NCBI GenBank assembly: GCA_003507655.1
Contig: DNUZ01000006.1
Coordinates: 1-38,803 of the forward strand
Direction of reading: 5' to 3'
DNA length: 38,803 bases
DNA from: Lachnospiraceae bacterium
GTDB lineage: Bacteria; Bacillota; Clostridia; Lachnospirales; Lachnospiraceae
Shown: piece by piece, positions 1,442 to 24,569 of the stretch
Position numbering within the stretch: position 1 is the first letter of the stretch
How the letters are laid out: each line of letters starts with the position of its first letter
Translations under genes and position numbers: made by a program
Notes under the pieces: generated by a model
The model's input: only the letters and a program-made list of their open reading frames with translations
Told to the model about the DNA's origin: nothing
Databases searched by the model: none

Positions 1442-2785
1442 ATGGAAGAAAAAGCATTAGCAGGCGACTTTACGCAGGGAAGTATTGCGAATAAGCTGAT
1501 ACGTTTTATGATACCGATCTTAGGAGCATTGGTATTGCAGGCAATGTATGGAGCGGTGGACCTTTTAGTAGTCGGACAGTTTGGAACAGATGCCGGGATC
1601 TCGGCAGTATCGACAGGAAGTAATGTCATTAATCTGGTGACATTCGTAATTTCCGAGCTGACGATGGGTGTGACGGTTTTGATCGGACGTTATTTAGGAG
1701 AGAACAGAAATGAACGGATCGGAAAAGTCATCGGTGGTGCGATCGTATTTTTTGCCATTATGGCTGCGGTACTGATGGTATTACTGCTGGCATTTGCCCC
1801 GCAGTTTGCCTCCTGGCTGAATGCCCCAAAAGAAGCGTATGATCTGACCGTTACTTATATCAGGATCTGCGGAGCGGGTATCTTATTCGTAGTAGCATAT
1901 AATGTGATCAGCGGAATTTTTCGTGGACTTGGAAATTCCAGACTGCCGTTGATCTTTGTGGCGATCGCATGTGTGGTCAATATTGTAGGGGATTTAGTCT
2001 TTGTAGCCGTTTTTAAAATGAATGTGGCAGGTGCGGCATTAGCGACGATCTTAGCGCAGCTTGTCAGTGTGGTCATGTCCCTGGCAATTATAAAAAAACA
2101 GCAGTTTCCGTTTCATTTTTCCAAAAAGGATATCTGCTTTACTTCCGAGATCCGCAACTTTTTAAAAGTGGGATTCCCAATCGCATTACAGGAATTTTTG
2201 ACAAACATCTCATTTTTGATCCTGTGTGCGATCATCAACGGAATGGGATTAGAGGCATCTTCCGGCTATGGAATTGCACAGAAGGTAGTATCGTTTATCA
2301 TGCTGATCCCATCCTCACTGATGCAGTCCATGTCAGCTTTTGTGGCACAGAATGTCGGAGCAGGAAAAGAGGACCGGGCAAGAAAAGCAATGCGTACCGG
2401 AATGTTGTTAGGAGTCACGATCGGAATCTTTGTATCGGCACTCAGTTTTTTCAGAGGCGATATTCCATCCGCACTCTTTACAGGAAATCAGGCATTCATA
2501 GCAAGATCGGCAGAGTACCTGAAGGGATTTGCCCCGGAAGCGATCCTGACCTGTCTGGTATTCAGTTATATCGGGTATTTTAACGGACATGGAAAGACAA
2601 TCCCGGTTATGGTACAGGGGATCAGCGCATCCTTTTTAGTGCGTGTCCCGCTTTCTTATCTGTTCAGTATACAAAAAGGTGCGACCTTAACAACGATCGG
2701 TTATGCCGTTCCATTGGCATCCGTTTACGGGATCATCTTTTTTACAATATGTTATCTGGTATTTTTAAGAAAAATGAAGAAGTGA
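1442..2785 (+). CDS. MATE family efflux transporter
   Basis: This 447-aa integral membrane protein has about 12 hydrophobic segments in two homologous halves, the size and layout of MATE (multidrug and toxin extrusion) antiporters. Those export cationic or drug-like compounds using Na+ or H+ gradients. The N-terminus (FTQGSIANKLIRFMIPILGALVLQAMYGAVDLLVVGQ) is typical of the DinF/NorM-like Firmicute group. It starts 46 bases after the esterase, behind an AAGGAG site, and probably shares its transcript. A hairpin shared with the convergent DtxR-family gene follows. The substrate is unknown. Confidence 0.9.
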   Translation: MEEKALAGDFTQGSIANKLIRFMIPILGALVLQAMYGAVDLLVVGQFGTDAGISAVSTGSNVINLVTFVISELTMGVTVLIGRYLGENRNERIGKVIGGAIVFFAIMAAVLMVLLLAFAPQFASWLNAPKEAYDLTVTYIRICGAGILFVVAYNVISGIFRGLGNSRLPLIFVAIACVVNIVGDLVFVAVFKMNVAGAALATILAQLVSVVMSLAIIKKQQFPFHFSKKDICFTSEIRNFLKVGFPIALQEFLTNISFLILCAIINGMGLEASSGYGIAQKVVSFIMLIPSSLMQSMSAFVAQNVGAGKEDRARKAMRTGMLLGVTIGIFVSALSFFRGDIPSALFTGNQAFIARSAEYLKGFAPEAILTCLVFSYIGYFNGHGKTIPVMVQGISASFLVRVPLSYLFSIQKGATLTTIGYAVPLASVYGIIFFTICYLVFLRKMKK

Positions 2786-2821
2786 AAAAAGAACGCCACA
2801 TCCTAACCGATGTGGCGTTTA
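2785..2821. terminator. Bidirectional terminator between MATE gene and DtxR-family gene
   Basis: An 11-bp perfect stem (AACGCCACATC with GATGTGGCGTT, 2792-2819) encloses a 6-nt loop. On the minus strand it is followed by six T residues; on the plus strand by only a short TTT. The stop codon of the minus-strand gene (2803-2805) lies in the loop, so the last codons form one side of the stem. Confidence 0.85.
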
Positions 2822-3162
2822 ATTGCGTCAAAACTTTCTTTACTGATGACATGTTCCATCTTGCATGCATCCTGTGCAGCGATTTCTTTATCCACGCCAA
2901 GCGTCTCTAACCAGGTAGAGAGCAGAGTGTGACGTTCATAGATCATTTCTGCAATTTCCATTCCACTGTCTGTCAAAGTGATAAAACCGGAATCCGATAC
3001 AAGAATATATCCGTTTTCGCGCAGGTTCTTCATTGCAACGCTGACGCTTGATTTCTTAAATCCCATCTCATTGGCGATATCTACAGACCGGACAACCGGA
3101 AGGGAATGGCTGAGAACTAAGATCGTTTCTAAATAGTTTTCTGCTGATTCGTTCATTGTCAT
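2803..3162 (-). CDS. DtxR/MntR-family metal-dependent transcriptional repressor
   Basis: A 119-aa regulator: an N-terminal winged helix (about residues 5-65, with SVDIANEMGFKKSSVSVAMKNL as recognition region) and a metal-binding dimerisation part. There is no C-terminal SH3-like domain, as in short MntR/IdeR relatives. The ligand region reads ERH and C-K-M-E-H near residues 75 and 103-107. A Cys-x-x-Glu-His arrangement is closer to iron-type DtxR/IdeR than to Mn-type MntR, as I recall those families. Start chosen at 3162: the AGGAGG at 3173-3178 is 8 bases upstream. A start at 3180 would overlap that site, and 3156 is an alternative. It is divergent from feoA, so it probably controls the feo genes and perhaps itself. 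Confidence 0.85.
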   Translation of the reverse strand: MTMNESAENYLETILVLSHSLPVVRSVDIANEMGFKKSSVSVAMKNLRENGYILVSDSGFITLTDSGMEIAEMIYERHTLLSTWLETLGVDKEIAAQDACKMEHVISKESFDAIKRHIG

Positions 3163-7917: not shown

Positions 7918-8196
7918 ATGAGCGTAGTAATTGTCGGAGGCCATGACCGTATGGTACAGCAGTATAAGCAGGTCTGCAAAGCGCATCGCTGCAAAGCAAA
8001 GGTGTTTACAAAAAAAGCAGGCAATCTCGGAAACCAGATCGGAAGTCCGGATGCCATTATTATTTTTACAAATACCGTATCGCATCAGATGGTAAAATCA
8101 GCAGTGACCGAAGCAGAAAAGGCAAATGCAGATGTAATCCGCTGCCATACGAGCAGTAAAAGTGCATTAAACGATATTCTTGAAAAATTAAAATAA
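7918..8196 (+). CDS. DUF2325 domain-containing protein
   Basis: A 92-aa protein made up of the DUF2325 fold: MSVVIVGGHDRM at the N-terminus, a basic middle, then SPDAIIIFTNTVSHQMVKSAV and a C-terminal helix. The glycine-rich N-terminus resembles a nucleotide or phosphate loop, but no catalytic role is known to me. It follows flavodoxin by 14 bases behind AAGGAGATG and is probably the last gene of that operon. I see no hairpin terminator after it; the next 68 bases lead into the leuA promoter. Confidence 0.85.
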   Translation: MSVVIVGGHDRMVQQYKQVCKAHRCKAKVFTKKAGNLGNQIGSPDAIIIFTNTVSHQMVKSAVTEAEKANADVIRCHTSSKSALNDILEKLK

Positions 8197-8223
8197 GTCA
8201 ATGTAAGTGATTAAATTTAATCA

Positions 8224-8252
8224 TTCTCAAACACGCATTTTTATGGTAGGAT
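8224..8252 (+). promoter_or_regulatory. Putative promoter of the leuA leader
   Basis: TTCTCA (8224-8229) and TAGGAT (8247-8252) are 17 bp apart. Both hexamers are imperfect, but the position just before the T-box leader is right. Confidence 0.4.
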
Positions 8253-8261
8253 GGGTACATG

Positions 8262-8577
8262 GTAAAAAGCTGTGAAGAGGAATAGTAACTGCCCATCATT
8301 TTTCCAGAAAGCTGTCGGAGGATGCGAGACAGCAAAATGCGGACGGTGAACTCGCCTTGAAGCTGCGGACTGAACAGGTCAGTAAAGCCTCAGTAACAGA
8401 AGAACAAATCTTTGTTACAGCTTAACAGACAGTAGGTTTCGCCGGAAGCCCACCGTTAAAGGGGAACGGCATGATAGTGCCAAAGAGAGCGTACTGATTA
8501 CAGTACGAAGTAGAGTGGTAACGCGAAAGAATAATCTTCCGTCTCTACACCGCGAGGTGTCGGGACGGATTTTTTTG
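8262..8577 (+). ncRNA. T-box leader RNA (leucine type) with terminator
   Basis: The leader has the T-box landmarks: a 5' GAAGAGGAATAGTAAC segment, hairpins with internal loops, the conserved AGAGTGGTAACGCG (8512-8525) whose TGGT can pair with the tRNA 3' end, and an intrinsic terminator (8538-8577) ending in seven T. A GTACTG/CAGTAC hairpin (8491-8506) precedes the T-box sequence. A CTT triplet at 8356-8358, before GAAGCTGCGGACTGAAC, is my best candidate for the specifier and would read leucine; CTC at 8351-8353 also would. Uncharged tRNA-Leu should therefore permit transcription into leuA. Confidence 0.88.
8538..8577 (+). terminator. T-box terminator
   Basis: The stem TCCGTC/GACGGA continues through TACACC/GGTGT with a GCGA loop and is followed by seven T residues. 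It competes with the antiterminator containing AGAGTGGTAACGCG. Confidence 0.85.
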
Positions 8578-8580
8578 TGT

Positions 8581-8706
8581 AAAGATTAAGAGGCAGAATT
8601 GTATTCAACCACAGAGTTCCGTGGATTGCACAAGGAAAACTGGAATATTTCATTTGTATAATCCACCAGATATAATTTAAAATACAATTCTGACATCTGA
8701 ATCTTT
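8581..8706 (+). repeat. Structured element between T-box terminator and leuA
   Basis: Nested inverted repeats occupy this stretch: AAAGATT (8581-8587) with AATCTTT (8700-8706); a perfect 12-bp pair CAGAATTGTATT (8594-8605) with AATACAATTCTG (8681-8692); and GTGGATT (8621-8627) with AATCCAC (8660-8666). The innermost loop (8628-8659) is closely similar to 25343-25374 in the tenI/ABC-F palindrome: about 27 of 32 bases agree, including GCACAAGGAAA and ATTTGTAT. It is either a second regulatory RNA structure in the leuA leader or a small MITE-like insertion. Confidence 0.6.
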
Positions 8707-8736
8707 AGAGAGAGTTCAATATAGGAGGATATCATC

Positions 8737-10734
8737 ATGGAACATGTACAAAAATATGAAAGACAATACTTTATGCCACCGGTCTGCGAATATGACTGGG
8801 TCAAAAAAGATTACATTGATAAAGCACCGATCTGGTGTTCCGTCGACTTAAGAGACGGAAACCAGGCATTGATCGAGCCAATGAGCTTAGAAGAAAAATT
8901 GGAATTTTTCGAGATGTTAGTAAAGATCGGCTTCAAAGAGATCGAAGTCGGATTCCCGGCAGCATCCGAGACAGAATATGATTTTATGCGGGCGCTGATC
9001 GACCGCAATATGATACCGGACGATGTGACCGTTCAGGTCTTAACACAGGCAAGAGAGCATATCATCCGTAAGACCTTCGAGGCAGTCAAAGGTGCGCCAC
9101 ATGCCGTAATACATCTGTACAACTCCACTTCCGTAGCACAGCGTGAGCAGGTATTTAAAAAGAGCAAAGAAGAAATCTTACAGATCGCAGTTGACGGAGC
9201 AAAACTTTTAAAGACACTTGCAGATGAGACCGAGGGTAATTTTTCCTTCCAGTACAGCCCGGAGAGTTTTCCGGGAACAGAAGTGGACTATGCAGTGGAT
9301 GTCTGCAATGCCGTGTTAGATGTCTGGAAACCGGATGCAGCAAATAAAGCGATCATCAACATACCGACCACAGTAGAAAATGCAATGCCGCATGTATTTG
9401 CCACTCAGGTAGAATACATCAACAAACATCTGAAATATCGTGACGGAGTGATCCTCTGTCTGCATCCGCACAACGACCGCGGCTGCGGAGTCAGTGATGC
9501 AGAGCTTGGAATCCTTGCAGGAGCCGAGCGTATCGAGGGAACCCTGTTTGGAAACGGTGAGCGTACCGGAAACGTAGATATCATCACACTTGCCATGAAT
9601 ATGTTTTCACACGGAGTCGATCCGGGACTGGATTTCAGCAATATGACAAAGATCCGTGAAACGTATGAGAGACTGACCAGAATGCATGTAGATCCTCGTC
9701 AGCCGTATGCCGGAGATTTGGTATTCACTGCATTTTCCGGTTCACATCAGGATGCGATCGCCAAAGGAATGGCTTGCTTAAAAGATAAAGAACATAACAA
9801 ATGGACCGTTCCATATCTGCCGATCGACCCGATGGATGTCGGACGTACTTATGATGCAGATGTGATCCGTATCAACAGCCAGTCCGGAAAGGGCGGAGTC
9901 AACTACATCTTAAAACAGAACTTTGGAATCTCACTGCCCGAAAAAATGCGTGAGGAAGTCGGCTATGCAGTTAAACATGTTTCAGATGAAGAGCACAAAG
10001 AACTTTCACCACAGTGGGTATATGATATCTTTGAAGATCATTATGTAAATCACACACCATATTTCTGTATTTCCGAGTGCAGCTTTGCACAGGTAGACGG
10101 GATCATGGCAGAGGCAACGATCAACTGCGGAGACAAGAGTGCAGTGGTAGATGCAAACGGAAACGGACGTTTAGATGCAGTCAGCAATGCCATCAAGCAG
10201 TATTTTGGGATCAGCTATGAACTTTCCGTATACGAAGAACATGCACTTTCCCATGGTTCCTCCTCAAAGGCAGTTGCCTATGTAGGGATCACCTGTAATG
10301 GAAAATCCTACTGGGGCGCAGGAATGGACGAAGATATCATCAAAGCATCTATCCATGCACTGACCGTTGCAGTCAACAAACTGCCACAGATACAGTCCGA
10401 TGAAAAATGCTTAGATGAGCGCCTGGTAGCAATGATGAATTATATGCAGACGAACTACCAGACCGTTACCTTAGAGGGAATGGCACAGCAGTTCCACCTG
10501 TCAACACCATATATTTCCAAATATATCAAAGAAAAATCAGGAAAAACTTTTGGAGAACAGGTGATAGCGATCCGCATGAAACGTGCAAAGACACTTTTGA
10601 AAAACGGAAACATGACTGTAGAGAATATCTCCCATGCAGTCGGTTATCAGAATGTGGAGAATTTCAGCCGCCAGTTTAAAAAGAATTTTCAGATGACACC
10701 GGTGCAGTACCGCAACCAGAACCGTGTTTCTTAA
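8737..10734 (+). CDS. leuA: 2-isopropylmalate synthase fused to a C-terminal AraC-type DNA-binding domain
   Basis: A 665-aa protein. Residues 1 to about 555 are a LeuA2-type 2-isopropylmalate synthase (acetyl-CoA + 2-oxoisovalerate, first step of leucine synthesis): catalytic R39-D40 in DLRDGNQA, metal ligands H243 and H245 in HPHNDRG, and the GNGERTGN segment. The C-terminal leucine-binding regulatory domain is at about 440-555. Residues about 562-660 are a complete AraC/XylS double helix-turn-helix ([41 protein letters not shown]). One uninterrupted frame covers both parts. AGGAGG precedes the ATG. A T-box and a second structured element lie upstream. The fused protein may sense leucine and bind DNA; this is inference. 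Confidence 0.93.
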
Positions 10735-20681: not shown

Positions 20682-21404
20682 ATGGCAGGATTATTCGGAA
20701 GTAACAGTTCATTTGGCGTGAGCAGTTTATTTGGTAACAATTCATCATCTGTATTGAGTGACTGGGCCTTTATCCGCAGCGGCACATATAAGAAGCTGAT
20801 GAAGGCTTATTATGGTCAGGATAAGACCACCAAATCTGCAACAGAAAGTGCTAAGACAAATAAGACGAAAACAACAGCAGAGCGTGTCCAGACTGAGATC
20901 GAGACAAGTGCAACAGATTTAAAGAAATCTACAGATGCACTGATGGCAACCGGCACGAAATCTTTGTTTAAAACGACAGAGACAAAGGGCGAGGACGGTA
21001 AGGTAACAAAGACCTATGACACAGATAAGATTTACAAAGCAGTCAGCCGGTTTGTAAAAGATTATAATGATCTGATTGATACTACAAACAAGAGCAGTGT
21101 CAGCGGTGTAAAGAATAACGTACGCAGCCTGACAGCTACGACAAACGGTAATGAGACATTGCTAAAGGCAGTCGGAATCACGGTCAAAGCAGATAACAAG
21201 CTGTCTATTGATGAAGATACCTTTAAGAAAGCAGATATGTCAAAGGTGGAGGCACTGTTTAAGGGAAATACCTCTTATGGATATCAGGTAGGGCTCAGAA
21301 CATCTTTGATCGACTATTATGCAGGCAGAGAAGCAGATACTTATAATAAGTATGGCAGCTACAGCACTGCAAATACAGGAACAAATTTTAACAGCTGGTT
21401 CTAA
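20682..21404 (+). CDS. FliD C-terminal-like protein, truncated relative to hook-associated protein 2
   Basis: A 240-aa protein. The N-terminal 30 residues are Ser/Gly/Asn/Phe-rich (GLFGSNSSFGVSSLFG). Residues about 30-110 form a Lys/Thr-rich helical region. Residues about 120-220 resemble the FliD C-terminus: AVSRFVKDYNDLIDTTNK, then LLKAVGITVKADNKLSIDEDTFKKADMSKVEALF. Full FliD is over 400 aa and has an N-terminal D0 coiled part that is absent here. It could be a surface, capping or adhesion protein derived from the flagellar cap, or a secreted filament accessory. GGAG site before ATG. It is monocistronic by context. Confidence 0.7.
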   Translation: MAGLFGSNSSFGVSSLFGNNSSSVLSDWAFIRSGTYKKLMKAYYGQDKTTKSATESAKTNKTKTTAERVQTEIETSATDLKKSTDALMATGTKSLFKTTETKGEDGKVTKTYDTDKIYKAVSRFVKDYNDLIDTTNKSSVSGVKNNVRSLTATTNGNETLLKAVGITVKADNKLSIDEDTFKKADMSKVEALFKGNTSYGYQVGLRTSLIDYYAGREADTYNKYGSYSTANTGTNFNSWF

Positions 21405-21431
21405 GTAACAGCGGGATAAAAACAGAATAGA

Positions 21432-21517
21432 ACAACGGGAGCTTGTGTTACAGGCTGAGAGGAAGGTAGAACCTTCGACCGATGACCTGATTTGGATAAT
21501 GCCAACGTAGGGATGTT
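21432..21517 (+). ncRNA. TPP riboswitch (THI element)
   Basis: The conserved thi-box pieces are present in order: ACGGGAGC, CAGGCTGAGAGG, CCGATGACCTGATTTGGATAATGCCAACGTAGGGA split between 21479 and 21513. A variable hairpin (GAAGGT/ACCTTC) lies in between. The terminator at 21546-21581 supplies the expression platform, so thiamine pyrophosphate should cause premature termination before thiS. Confidence 0.95.
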
Positions 21518-21545
21518 TAGGAAATTATGTTTTCGTATTTCATAG

Positions 21546-21880: not shown

Positions 21881-22516
21881 TTGATACCGACAAAAGAAGA
21901 GATGAGACAGGCCTTAGAAAAACGGCAGGGCAAAGAGCTGCAGCAGCGTTTTTTTGCAGCAACCGTTGCCATCTGCGGACTTGGCGGCTTAGGGTCGAAT
22001 ATTGCAATATCCCTTGCAAGAGCAGGAGTTGGAAAACTGATTCTGATCGATTTTGACAAAGTGGATGTTACAAATCTGCACAGGCAGCAATATAAGGCAT
22101 CACAGATTGGAAGATATAAGACAGAAGCACTATCCGAAAATTTAAAAGAAATTGCACCCTATGTAGAGCTTGAAACACATACTACCCGCATGACAGAGCA
22201 GAATGTTGTGGAATTATTAAAAGAGGCAGATGTGATCTGTGAGGCTTTTGATGATGCACAGGCAAAGGCAATGCTGACCAATTCGGTATTGGAGAATTTT
22301 CCACAGAAATATTTTGTGGCGGCTTCCGGGATGGCTGGCATCGGCAGTGCAAACAGTATTAGAACCAGACAGATCACAAAACGGTTTTATCTGTGCGGGG
22401 ATGGAGTCAGCGACGTGGGAGATGACATTGGACTTGTCTCCTCGCGTGTGATGCTCTGCGCAGCACATGAGGCGCATATGGTCTTACGGATATTAGCAGA
22501 AGAATTTGAAGTATAA
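21881..22516 (+). CDS. thiF: ThiS adenylyltransferase ThiF
   Basis: A 211-aa E1-like enzyme that adenylates the ThiS C-terminus. The nucleotide-binding motif [11 protein letters not shown] is at about residues 33-43, with D-x-D/V-x-N-L-x-R-Q ([13 protein letters not shown]) after it. It is the short clostridial form, without the extended C-terminal rhodanese part. I choose the TTG at 21881: AGGAGGTG at 21867-21874 sits six bases before it, giving the family-typical start MIPTKEEM. The in-frame GTG at 21872 overlaps that site. Confidence 0.9.
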
Positions 22517-22532
22517 AGAAAGAGGTACGAAC

Positions 22533-23303
22533 ATGGATAACGATAAACTTGTCATTGGCGGACATGAGTTCCGGTCACGATTTATTCTCGGCTCAGGAAA
22601 ATATTCTTTAAACCTGATCGAAGCAGCGATTAAAGATGCAGGAGCAGAGATCATTACACTTGCCGTTCGAAGGGCAAATACAAAGGAGCAGGAAAATATC
22701 TTGGATTTTATTCCAAAGGGAGTTACATTGCTTCCGAATACCAGTGGCGCAAGAGATGCAAAAGAAGCAGTCCGCATTGCCAGACTTGCGAGAGAGTTAG
22801 GCTGTGGTGATTTTGTCAAAGTAGAGATCATGCGGGATTCTAAATATCTGTTGCCGGATAACCAGGAGACGATCCGGGCAACAGAAATTTTAGCAAAGGA
22901 AGGATTTGTGGTCATGCCATATATGTATCCGGATCTGAATGCTGCCCGTGATCTTGTCAATGCCGGAGCGGCTGCGGTTATGCCGCTTGCATCCCCAATC
23001 GGTTCTAATAAAGGACTTGCAACAAAAGAATTTATTCAGATCCTGATCGATGAGATCGAACTTCCGATCATTGTGGATGCCGGTATTGGAAAACCTTCAC
23101 AGGCATGCGAAGCAATGGAAATGGGTGCTGCTGCAATTATGGCAAACACGGCACTTGCGACAGCCGGAAATCTTCCGATGATGGCATCGGCGTTTAAAGA
23201 TGCGATCGAAGCAGGACGTAAAGCCTATTTAGCGGGACTTGGAAGAGTCTTAACAAGAGGTGCAGCCGCATCTGACCCGTTGACAGGTTTTCTGCGTGAT
23301 TAG
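22533..23303 (+). CDS. thiG: Thiazole synthase ThiG
   Basis: A 256-aa TIM-barrel enzyme that assembles the thiazole phosphate from deoxyxylulose 5-phosphate, the dehydroglycine from ThiH and ThiS thiocarboxylate. The imine-forming lysine lies in DFVKVEIM (about residue 97). Phosphate-binding segments [19 protein letters not shown] and NTALATA are near the C-terminus. ATG at 22533 follows AGAGGT and begins [10 protein letters not shown]; an in-frame ATG at 22506 lies inside thiF and is unlikely. Confidence 0.96.
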
Positions 23304-23315
23304 GAGGGAAAGATT

Positions 23316-24569
23316 TTGGAAAATCAGTTTTTTGTAGATTCAGAATATTTGTCAAAAGAAGCCTTAGAGCGGAAACACCGTTTAGAAACAGACCCGTCTT
23401 TTCGCAAAAACCATATGGAGTACCTGCCGGGAATGGAGCAGATTGATTCTAATGTCTGTTCCGATGTGATGGGACAGGTGCAGACTTATGATTATGAAAA
23501 ATATACGGCAAAAGATGTGCGGGCAGCATTAGAGCATGCAACCTGTACGGTAGAGGATTTTAAAGCGTTATTATCCCCGGCGGCAGAGCCTTTTTTAGAG
23601 CAGATGGCAGAACGGGCGAGATTAGAGACCGGGAAACATTTTGGCAACACGGTATATCTGTTTACCCCTTTATATATAGCAAATTATTGTGAAAATTATT
23701 GCGTTTACTGCGGTTTTAACTGTTATAACCATATCAGCCGCATGAAGCTCAGTATGGAGCAGATTGAACATGAGATGCAGGTCATTGCAGACAGCGGAAT
23801 GGAAGAGATCCTGATCCTGACCGGAGAGAGCAGGAGTAAGAGTGATGTGGCTTACATAGGAGAAGCCTGTAAGTTAGCAAGAAAATATTTCCGCATGGTG
23901 GGACTTGAAATTTATCCGGTCAATACGGAGGAGTACCGTTATCTTCACGAGTGCGGAGCAGATTATGTCACTGTCTTTCAGGAAACATACGATGCAAAAA
24001 AATATGAAACCCTGCACTTAGCAGGACACAAACGTGTATGGCCCTACCGCTTTGACGCACAGGAGAGGGCATTGATGGGGGGGATGCGTGGAGTTGCATT
24101 TTCAGCACTGTTAGGACTTTCGGATTTTCGTAAAGATGCGCTTGCAAGTGCACTGCATGTATACTATTTGCAGCGTAAATATCCGCATGCAGAAATGTCC
24201 TTATCCTGTCCGAGACTTCGTCCGATCATCAATAACGATAAGATCAATCCATTGGATGTGCATGAAAAGCAGCTTTGCCAGATCCTCTGTGCGTATCGTA
24301 TTTTTTTGCCGTTTGTGGGAATTACGGTATCTTCCCGTGAGAGTGCAGAATTCCGTAACGGAATTGTGAAGATCGCAGCAACAAAAGTCTCCGCGGGAGT
24401 TTCTACCGGCATCGGAGACCATGAGAGCAAATACAGTGGAAAGGAGACAGGCTGTAAACAGGGCGATGAGCAGTTTGAGATTGACGACAGCCGAAGCCTT
24501 GAGAAAATGTATCAGGATATGTCCGGGGAAGGTTTGCAGCCTGTGCTGAATGATTATCTCTATGTCTGA
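23316..24569 (+). CDS. thiH: 2-iminoacetate synthase ThiH (radical SAM tyrosine lyase)
   Basis: A 417-aa radical SAM enzyme that cleaves tyrosine to p-cresol and dehydroglycine, the nitrogen-carbon unit for the thiazole. The [4Fe-4S] cysteines C125-x3-C129-x2-C132 (CENYCVYC) are present. The ThiH/BATS C-terminal region follows. The start is TTG at 23316, preceded by AGGAGGG. It needs low-potential reductant, fitting the anaerobic lifestyle; flavodoxin or ferredoxin would supply it. tenI overlaps its 3' end. Confidence 0.96.
   Translation: MENQFFVDSEYLSKEALERKHRLETDPSFRKNHMEYLPGMEQIDSNVCSDVMGQVQTYDYEKYTAKDVRAALEHATCTVEDFKALLSPAAEPFLEQMAERARLETGKHFGNTVYLFTPLYIANYCENYCVYCGFNCYNHISRMKLSMEQIEHEMQVIADSGMEEILILTGESRSKSDVAYIGEACKLARKYFRMVGLEIYPVNTEEYRYLHECGADYVTVFQETYDAKKYETLHLAGHKRVWPYRFDAQERALMGGMRGVAFSALLGLSDFRKDALASALHVYYLQRKYPHAEMSLSCPRLRPIINNDKINPLDVHEKQLCQILCAYRIFLPFVGITVSSRESAEFRNGIVKIAATKVSAGVSTGIGDHESKYSGKETGCKQGDEQFEIDDSRSLEKMYQDMSGEGLQPVLNDYLYV

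Follow-up and report, generated by a model that had tools for sequence, protein, structure and literature searches.

LeuA-AraC, encoded on a contig from a Lachnospiraceae bacterium, is likely, on sequence evidence, to be a working 2-isopropylmalate synthase that also acts as transcription factor for the gene encoding it, that is, a trigger enzyme with a single target. The window, by which we mean the whole stretch of 38,803 nucleotides that was analysed, carries the gene downstream of its predicted control elements (Table 1). Comparison with related genes shows an AraC domain placed after the leucine domain with a linker of ∼11 residues, and a 38-bp predicted operator (O1) that abuts the −35 position. 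One chain unites an entire enzyme with a full DNA-binding domain, and a conserved predicted site is found in the promoters, the latter as an association. Because this upstream site appears together with the DNA-binding tail, the enzyme probably regulates its own synthesis. The autoregulation of leuA probably takes the form of leucine-gated activation, for which we infer the DNA binding, the ligand and the sign.

Table 1. Features of the leuA-araC locus (positions in the window).
Feature	Position	Strand	Basis or remark
Predicted operator O1 of LeuA-AraC, 38 bp	8188..8225	+	PWM, pattern search
Extended −10 TGGTAGGAT; −10 hexamer 8247-8252	8244..8252	+	18 bp after O1, as in most relatives
T-box leader RF00230, 110.9 bits (gathering score 93)	8263..8549	+	Rfam
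T-box specifier codon CTC (Leu) in GAACTCGCC	8351..8353	+	by eye
leuA-araC fusion gene, 665 aa	8737..10734	+	single ORF
HMGL-like catalytic TIM barrel, residues 31-308	8827..9660	+	LRDGNQ, HPHNDRG, GNGERTGN blocks intact
IPMS_D2 post-catalytic domain, residues 327-393	9715..9915	+	domain match
LeuA_dimer allosteric (leucine) domain, residues 423-549	10003..10383	+	domain match
Short variable linker, residues 550-560	10384..10416	+	conservation table
AraC-type double HTH, residues 561-665 (HTH_18 582-661)	10417..10731	+	domain match, conservation, fold

The first-pass annotation had described one frame coding for a full LeuA with its leucine domain, followed by both AraC helix-turn-helix (HTH) units, and domain, subfamily and fold matches confirm that the product is a full 2-isopropylmalate synthase and then a full two-HTH AraC domain. 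The PRK03739 subfamily match is full-length, with 801.7 bits over residues 5–548 (curated cut-off 455). In 73 LeuA sequences, residues R39, D40, H243, H245 and N279, which were aligned to 1SR9 and which we take to be catalytic or metal-binding, are invariant; the catalytic blocks and the leucine-domain residues G475, G477 and Y499 do not vary either. The match to the Mycobacterium tuberculosis enzyme (1SR9, 3FIG) stops at the leucine domain, as that protein is without the HTH. The C-terminal part scores 69 bits with HTH_18 (Pfam cut-off 33.6) and 43.7 bits with HTH_AraC (cut-off 26.6). AraC was absent among the matches listed for the whole-protein model in fold matching because the TIM barrel took up the list; when the HTH was modelled by itself, its predicted structure was a seven-helix double HTH of the AraC/XylS type. 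In contrast to Escherichia coli AraC and the AraC/XylS family, the sensor of LeuA-AraC would be an entire catalytic enzyme that includes a LeuA_dimer domain rather than a cupin.

Residues Y592, S594, G602, F605, E641, F643, R645 and F647 are identical in all 89 fused proteins compared, and H642 is kept in 98% of them, the window protein having an asparagine at this position. Degradation of the recognition helices across the clade, which would have spoken against a regulatory role, is ruled out by this conservation. The HTH domain evolves faster than LeuA (mean p-distance 0.37 vs 0.25), as might be expected of a vestigial or merely structural tail. We regard such a tail as very improbable, since the recognition helices are invariant, the operator tracks the domain, and the HTH is intact even where the frame has shifted (see below).

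Twenty loci were found in the scanned contigs of named genomes, of which 18, all with Lachnospiraceae or Eubacterium names, have the HTH (partial in L019) and two, L017 and L020, are without it. Within the family of Roseburia inulinivorans (G001), a LeuA match (E≤1e-40) is present in 277 of 298 genomes and the full fusion in at least 76 of the 298 among matches listed down to about 810 bits, to which very divergent fusions may add more. This recurrence rules out an assembly artefact, the case in which the HTH would be missing from close homologues. A single LeuA match at E≤1e-40 is present in 68 of the 76 fusion genomes; therefore, a genome with the fusion usually has no other leuA of this type. 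In a phylum-wide sample of 398 genomes, 100 have a LeuA match and 4 the fusion. Database names for carriers of the fusion include Dorea longicatena and Konateibacter massiliensis.

The comparisons below use 89 fused and 18 unfused genes, a set that omits identical proteins (duplicates among L021–L028, L047, L116 and L121) and the partial L019. Of the 18 first called unfused, L159 and L164 are frame-split, and L029 and L030 belong to a second LeuA type within fused genomes, leaving 14 truly unfused leuA genes, or 16 when the second type is counted. The unfused genes are not a random draw: they comprise the nearest ones to the query along with L017, L020 and the two second-type genes. Among the 89 fused genes, distances of the HTH part correlate with those of the LeuA part (Mantel r 0.74, 0 of 999 permutations). 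The fused and unfused labels are patchy on the tree, which was built by a quick method and has 41 of its 110 inner branches open; its count of 9 label changes is slightly too high because P0128, which ends in a truncated HTH, was labelled unfused, and the starred branches force at least 7 changes. This patchiness suggests one old fusion followed by repeated losses or transfers. A database protein, P0006, has a C-terminal 125 residues identical to those of the window protein at an overall identity of about 77%, for which domain exchange and a metagenome chimera are alternative explanations.

The putative operator was first spotted as a shared block on reading the upstream regions of fused leuA genes. 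Its aligned consensus, TTAAAATAnATCAA-n6-TGATTAAATTTA(A)TCA-TT, lies just upstream of the fused leuA promoter, and its half-sites are tandem repeats about 22–23 bp apart, with a palindrome too in the Roseburia group (by eye). O1 of the window contains the perfect palindrome TGATTAAATTTAATCA at 8208–8223, the only match at up to 3 mismatches within the 38.8 kb (0.59 expected); the position weight matrix (PWM) score of O1 is 41.5, and nothing elsewhere in the window exceeds 6. Leave-one-out PWM scores are above 12 at 74 of 89 fused leuA upstreams and at none of the 16 truly unfused ones, where the top score is −5.7 (Fisher 1e-10, kinship ignored), and 83 of the 89 fused upstreams beat the maximum of 267 shuffles. 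Fifteen of the 89 score 12 or less, and six (L013, L014, L053, L143, L152 and L156) score no higher than shuffles; whole-locus scans of operator-less fused genes (L013, L014, and L221 for L053) found no operator site. A genome-wide search with a laxer pattern, allowing 0–2 mismatches, detected a leuA site in every one of 16 fused genomes and no site at all in 16 unfused genomes. Matches at exactly 3 mismatches number 6 off leuA in the fused genomes, 4 in the unfused genomes and 3 in the reversed control and are therefore at chance level.

The site could instead be bound by another leucine regulator, with the HTH of LeuA serving something else. The presence of O1-like sites at ilvB, leuB and leuC (see below) shows O1 to be part of some branched-chain circuit, and its binding by LeuA-AraC is itself a prediction. 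We consider another regulator improbable, as O1 is missing from all 16 true unfused leuA upstreams, some of them beside or within fused clades, and the 16 unfused genomes hold no copy at 0–2 mismatches. The operator was not found at the unfused L160, L163, L168 and L170, which neighbor or sit inside fused clades, a pattern that joint loss of domain and site would predict; upstream of L163 and L170, neither operator nor T-box was found.

Two apparently unfused genes have the operator, L159 (score 41.8) and L164 (score 20.0). They are not true exceptions, because an intact HTH follows directly after the leuA stop in another frame. In L159 (G058), the HTH beyond the frame difference is 66% identical to that of the window and has its own ATG ahead. 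In L164 (G071), the intact HTH lies in the −1 frame after the stop at the 3′ end of leuA (minus strand, about 2697–3050) and is 46% identical to that of the window; a run of eight A stands 13 nt ahead of the leuA stop. Upstream of the first HTH, its frame offers no start codon of the ATG, GTG or TTG type. The plain LeuA of G071 (P0122) is seen in 8 contigs. On these features of its sequence, L164 is a candidate for programmed frameshifting or transcript slippage.

Variation of the right half-site can be compared with that of residue 590, which adjoins the first recognition helix. Where the right half-site (operator columns 31–37) reads AATCAT, residue 590 is E, T or A in 21 of 25 fused genes; where it reads TCACT, the residue is K in 35 of 37. 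Positions that separate the two classes equally well number 15 of 116 in the C-terminal part vs 22 of 549 in LeuA, with kinship left in.

The spacing between operator and promoter is conserved. In 63 of 75 genes, an extended −10 element (TGnTAnnnT) starts exactly 18 bp past the 38-mer; the background frequency of the element is 0.0024 per bp. The −35 position overlaps the final two operator bases and is poor, with 2–4 mismatches to TTGACA in 66 of 74 genes. A site upstream of a degenerate −35 with an extended −10 is the usual layout for activators of the AraC type. Judged by the operator position and the weak −35, the sign of regulation would be activation.

A PutA-like autorepressor, in which LeuA-AraC binds O1 and blocks polymerase when leucine (or the enzyme) is plentiful, is to be weighed against activation. 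Contact of O1 with the −35 position suits a repressor too. Moreover, some relatives have a weaker second copy of the operator, O2, which lies over the start region, downstream of O1 by about 74 bp. O2 exceeds the 95% null in 35 of 76 genes, where about 4 are expected (17 of 76 in the reverse direction at the same threshold), and in 25 of the 35 it is 73–76 bp from O1, about seven helical turns. However, O2 was not found in the upstream region of the window, and the layout of O1, degenerate −35 and extended −10 is, as noted, that of AraC-type activation. On balance, we view autorepression as rather unlikely and favor the leucine-gated activator.

The window combines O1 with a second, RNA-based element: the order is O1, promoter, T-box, and the T-box begins ten bases after the predicted −10. 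Across the family, Rfam at its gathering score detects a T-box ahead of leuA in 14 of the 85 fused genes scanned (of 89) and in 10 of 14 unfused genes (Fisher 7e-5, kinship ignored). An earlier count by sequence pattern (15 of 89 fused, 10 of 14 unfused) agrees with these numbers; the leuA T-boxes were recounted with Rfam because the pattern had missed all 10 of the 10 ilvB T-boxes found by Rfam. O2 is present in 1 of 14 T-box genes vs 34 of 62 others (Fisher 0.001, kinship ignored). Leaders measure 405–824 bases with T-box and operator and 90–305 bases with the operator alone. It thus seems that the family is trading RNA-based for protein-based control, with both kept in the lineage of the window.

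Other RNA elements were seen in these leaders. Downstream of the T-box terminator and ahead of the leuA start lies a long, near-perfect hairpin (8582–8713 of the window; folding z −2.7); it was not seen by eye in the nearest relative, L001, and is maybe an insertion. In the unfused L162 and L169, a match to the Clostridiales-1 sRNA family (RF01699; 91.2 and 112.9 bits) lies between T-box and leuA. All 10 ilvB loci scanned with Rfam have a T-box leader, and 11 of 15 ilvB upstreams (L350–L364) carry GAAGTAGCC, which from its sequence looks like a valine (GUA) specifier. In G167 and G201, a predicted LeuA-AraC operator precedes the ilvB T-box leader. Elsewhere in the window, a TPP riboswitch (21425–21530, 70.8 bits) stands ahead of a thiamine cluster with ThiG (22506–23303) and a radical-SAM BATS protein (23316–24569). 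A 240-aa ORF (20682–21404) that matches the FliD C-terminal domain is located between a uracil-DNA-glycosylase-like gene and this cluster.

To define the likely targets, a strict operator pattern was applied to 80 fused genomes, giving 48 sites in 44 genomes and 0 in the reversed control. Forty-three of the 48 sites are at leuA, a proportion to be read with the fact that the strict pattern misses weak sites. Three of the others are at ilvB-ilvN (G167), leuB-ilvD (G293) and leuC-leuD (G188), genes named by NCBIfam; the remaining two, near glyA (G004) and before trkA (G062), look like chance or unexplained matches. No strict match was found in 36 of the 80 genomes, part of which have Roseburia-type sites detected by the laxer pattern. 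Directed scans add leuB in G021 (12.0) and ilvB in G201 (12.2). TATAAT stands exactly in the leuA register at 4 of 5 leu/ilv sites vs 29 of 2380 random places. Upstreams of leuC (36 fused, 24 unfused) show no operator difference (p 0.43) and those of leuB (35 fused, 24 unfused) a weak one (p 0.02); the ilvB scan covered fused genomes, where 4 of 29 upstreams are above the shuffle maximum, two of these above 12.

The first-pass annotation had proposed a trigger enzyme that regulates branched-chain amino-acid genes. The idea of a trigger enzyme gains strong comparative support from the conserved recognition helices, the tie between operator and HTH, and the register of operator and promoter. Its proposed range has to be narrowed: given the leuC and leuB comparisons and the few lineages with ilvB, leuB-ilvD or leuC-leuD sites, a general regulator of branched-chain genes is unsupported, and the main target is leuA itself. 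Because leuC is null, leuB weak and off-leuA sites few, the basic regulon appears to be leuA with occasional recruitment of other genes.

In the mechanism that we propose, the LeuA dimer would place its two AraC domains on the two half-sites of O1. At low leucine, LeuA-AraC would assist RNA polymerase where the promoter combines an extended −10 with a poor −35. Binding of leucine in the pocket at the dimer interface, or alternatively 2-isopropylmalate occupancy, would move the HTH pair and turn activation off. The leucine-specifier T-box of the window would add a second control, on transcript elongation, and O2, where present, could serve repression or bridging. Rather than leucine, the signal might be 2-isopropylmalate or the filling of the active site by substrate, such that the protein reports its own flux. 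All catalytic blocks are intact, and 2-isopropylmalate is the ligand of yeast Leu3 according to an excerpt of PMC2930855. On the other hand, the HTH is joined directly to the leucine-binding domain, and the leucine pockets of LeuA lie at the dimer interface (excerpt of PMC11057210). We judge a flux signal somewhat unlikely, and leucine remains our preferred ligand.

Known systems share parts of this arrangement. PutA of E. coli, the best analogue, is likewise a metabolic enzyme with a DNA-binding domain that binds at its own locus; according to the excerpt of PMC8249747 it targets nothing besides its own gene and the divergent putP. PutA differs in being a catabolic proline dehydrogenase and a repressor released by its substrate, whereas LeuA-AraC represents a biosynthetic committed step, has an AraC domain and is probably an activator. 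The DNA-binding domain of PutA is a ribbon-helix-helix. BirA (biotin) and NadR (NAD) are listed as trigger enzymes in the same excerpt (PMC8249747). They also have enzyme and DNA-binding parts in one chain, but differ from LeuA-AraC in being other enzymes with several targets. In both, the DNA-binding part is N-terminal and of a type other than AraC. Yeast Leu3 and the leuA T-box also let the state of the leucine pathway control leucine genes. However, Leu3 is a separate regulator and the T-box is an RNA reading tRNA-Leu, whereas LeuA-AraC is an enzyme with its own DNA-binding domain, accompanied in the window by a T-box.

In listings and abstract openings from the open-access full-text literature (subscription papers and preprints being outside this scope), no LeuA-AraC protein or O1-type operator is described. 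The regulation by LeuA-AraC and its operator are likely, not proven, to be novel. The predicted regulatory role has been overlooked because sources that name the fusion protein call it simply 2-isopropylmalate synthase.

Taken together, the sequences permit a tentative reading in which a whole leucine feedback circuit (enzyme, allosteric leucine sensor and promoter switch) resides in one polypeptide. In a large part of one family, this circuit would have largely replaced the T-box as the control of leuA. Some lineages would have added a second operator for repression; later, the circuit would have been recruited to ilvB, leuB-ilvD and leuC-leuD, and slippage at the eight A of G071 may yield both plain LeuA and LeuA-AraC. 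To our knowledge, trigger enzymes are few and mostly belong to catabolism or cofactor pathways. If our interpretation is true, an enzyme of a committed step in amino-acid synthesis that binds its own operator via an AraC domain would represent a new class. The fusion is present in gut bacteria such as R. inulinivorans and D. longicatena, and the family, with its mix of fused and unfused genes and T-boxes commoner before unfused leuA, offers a natural study of protein replacing RNA control.
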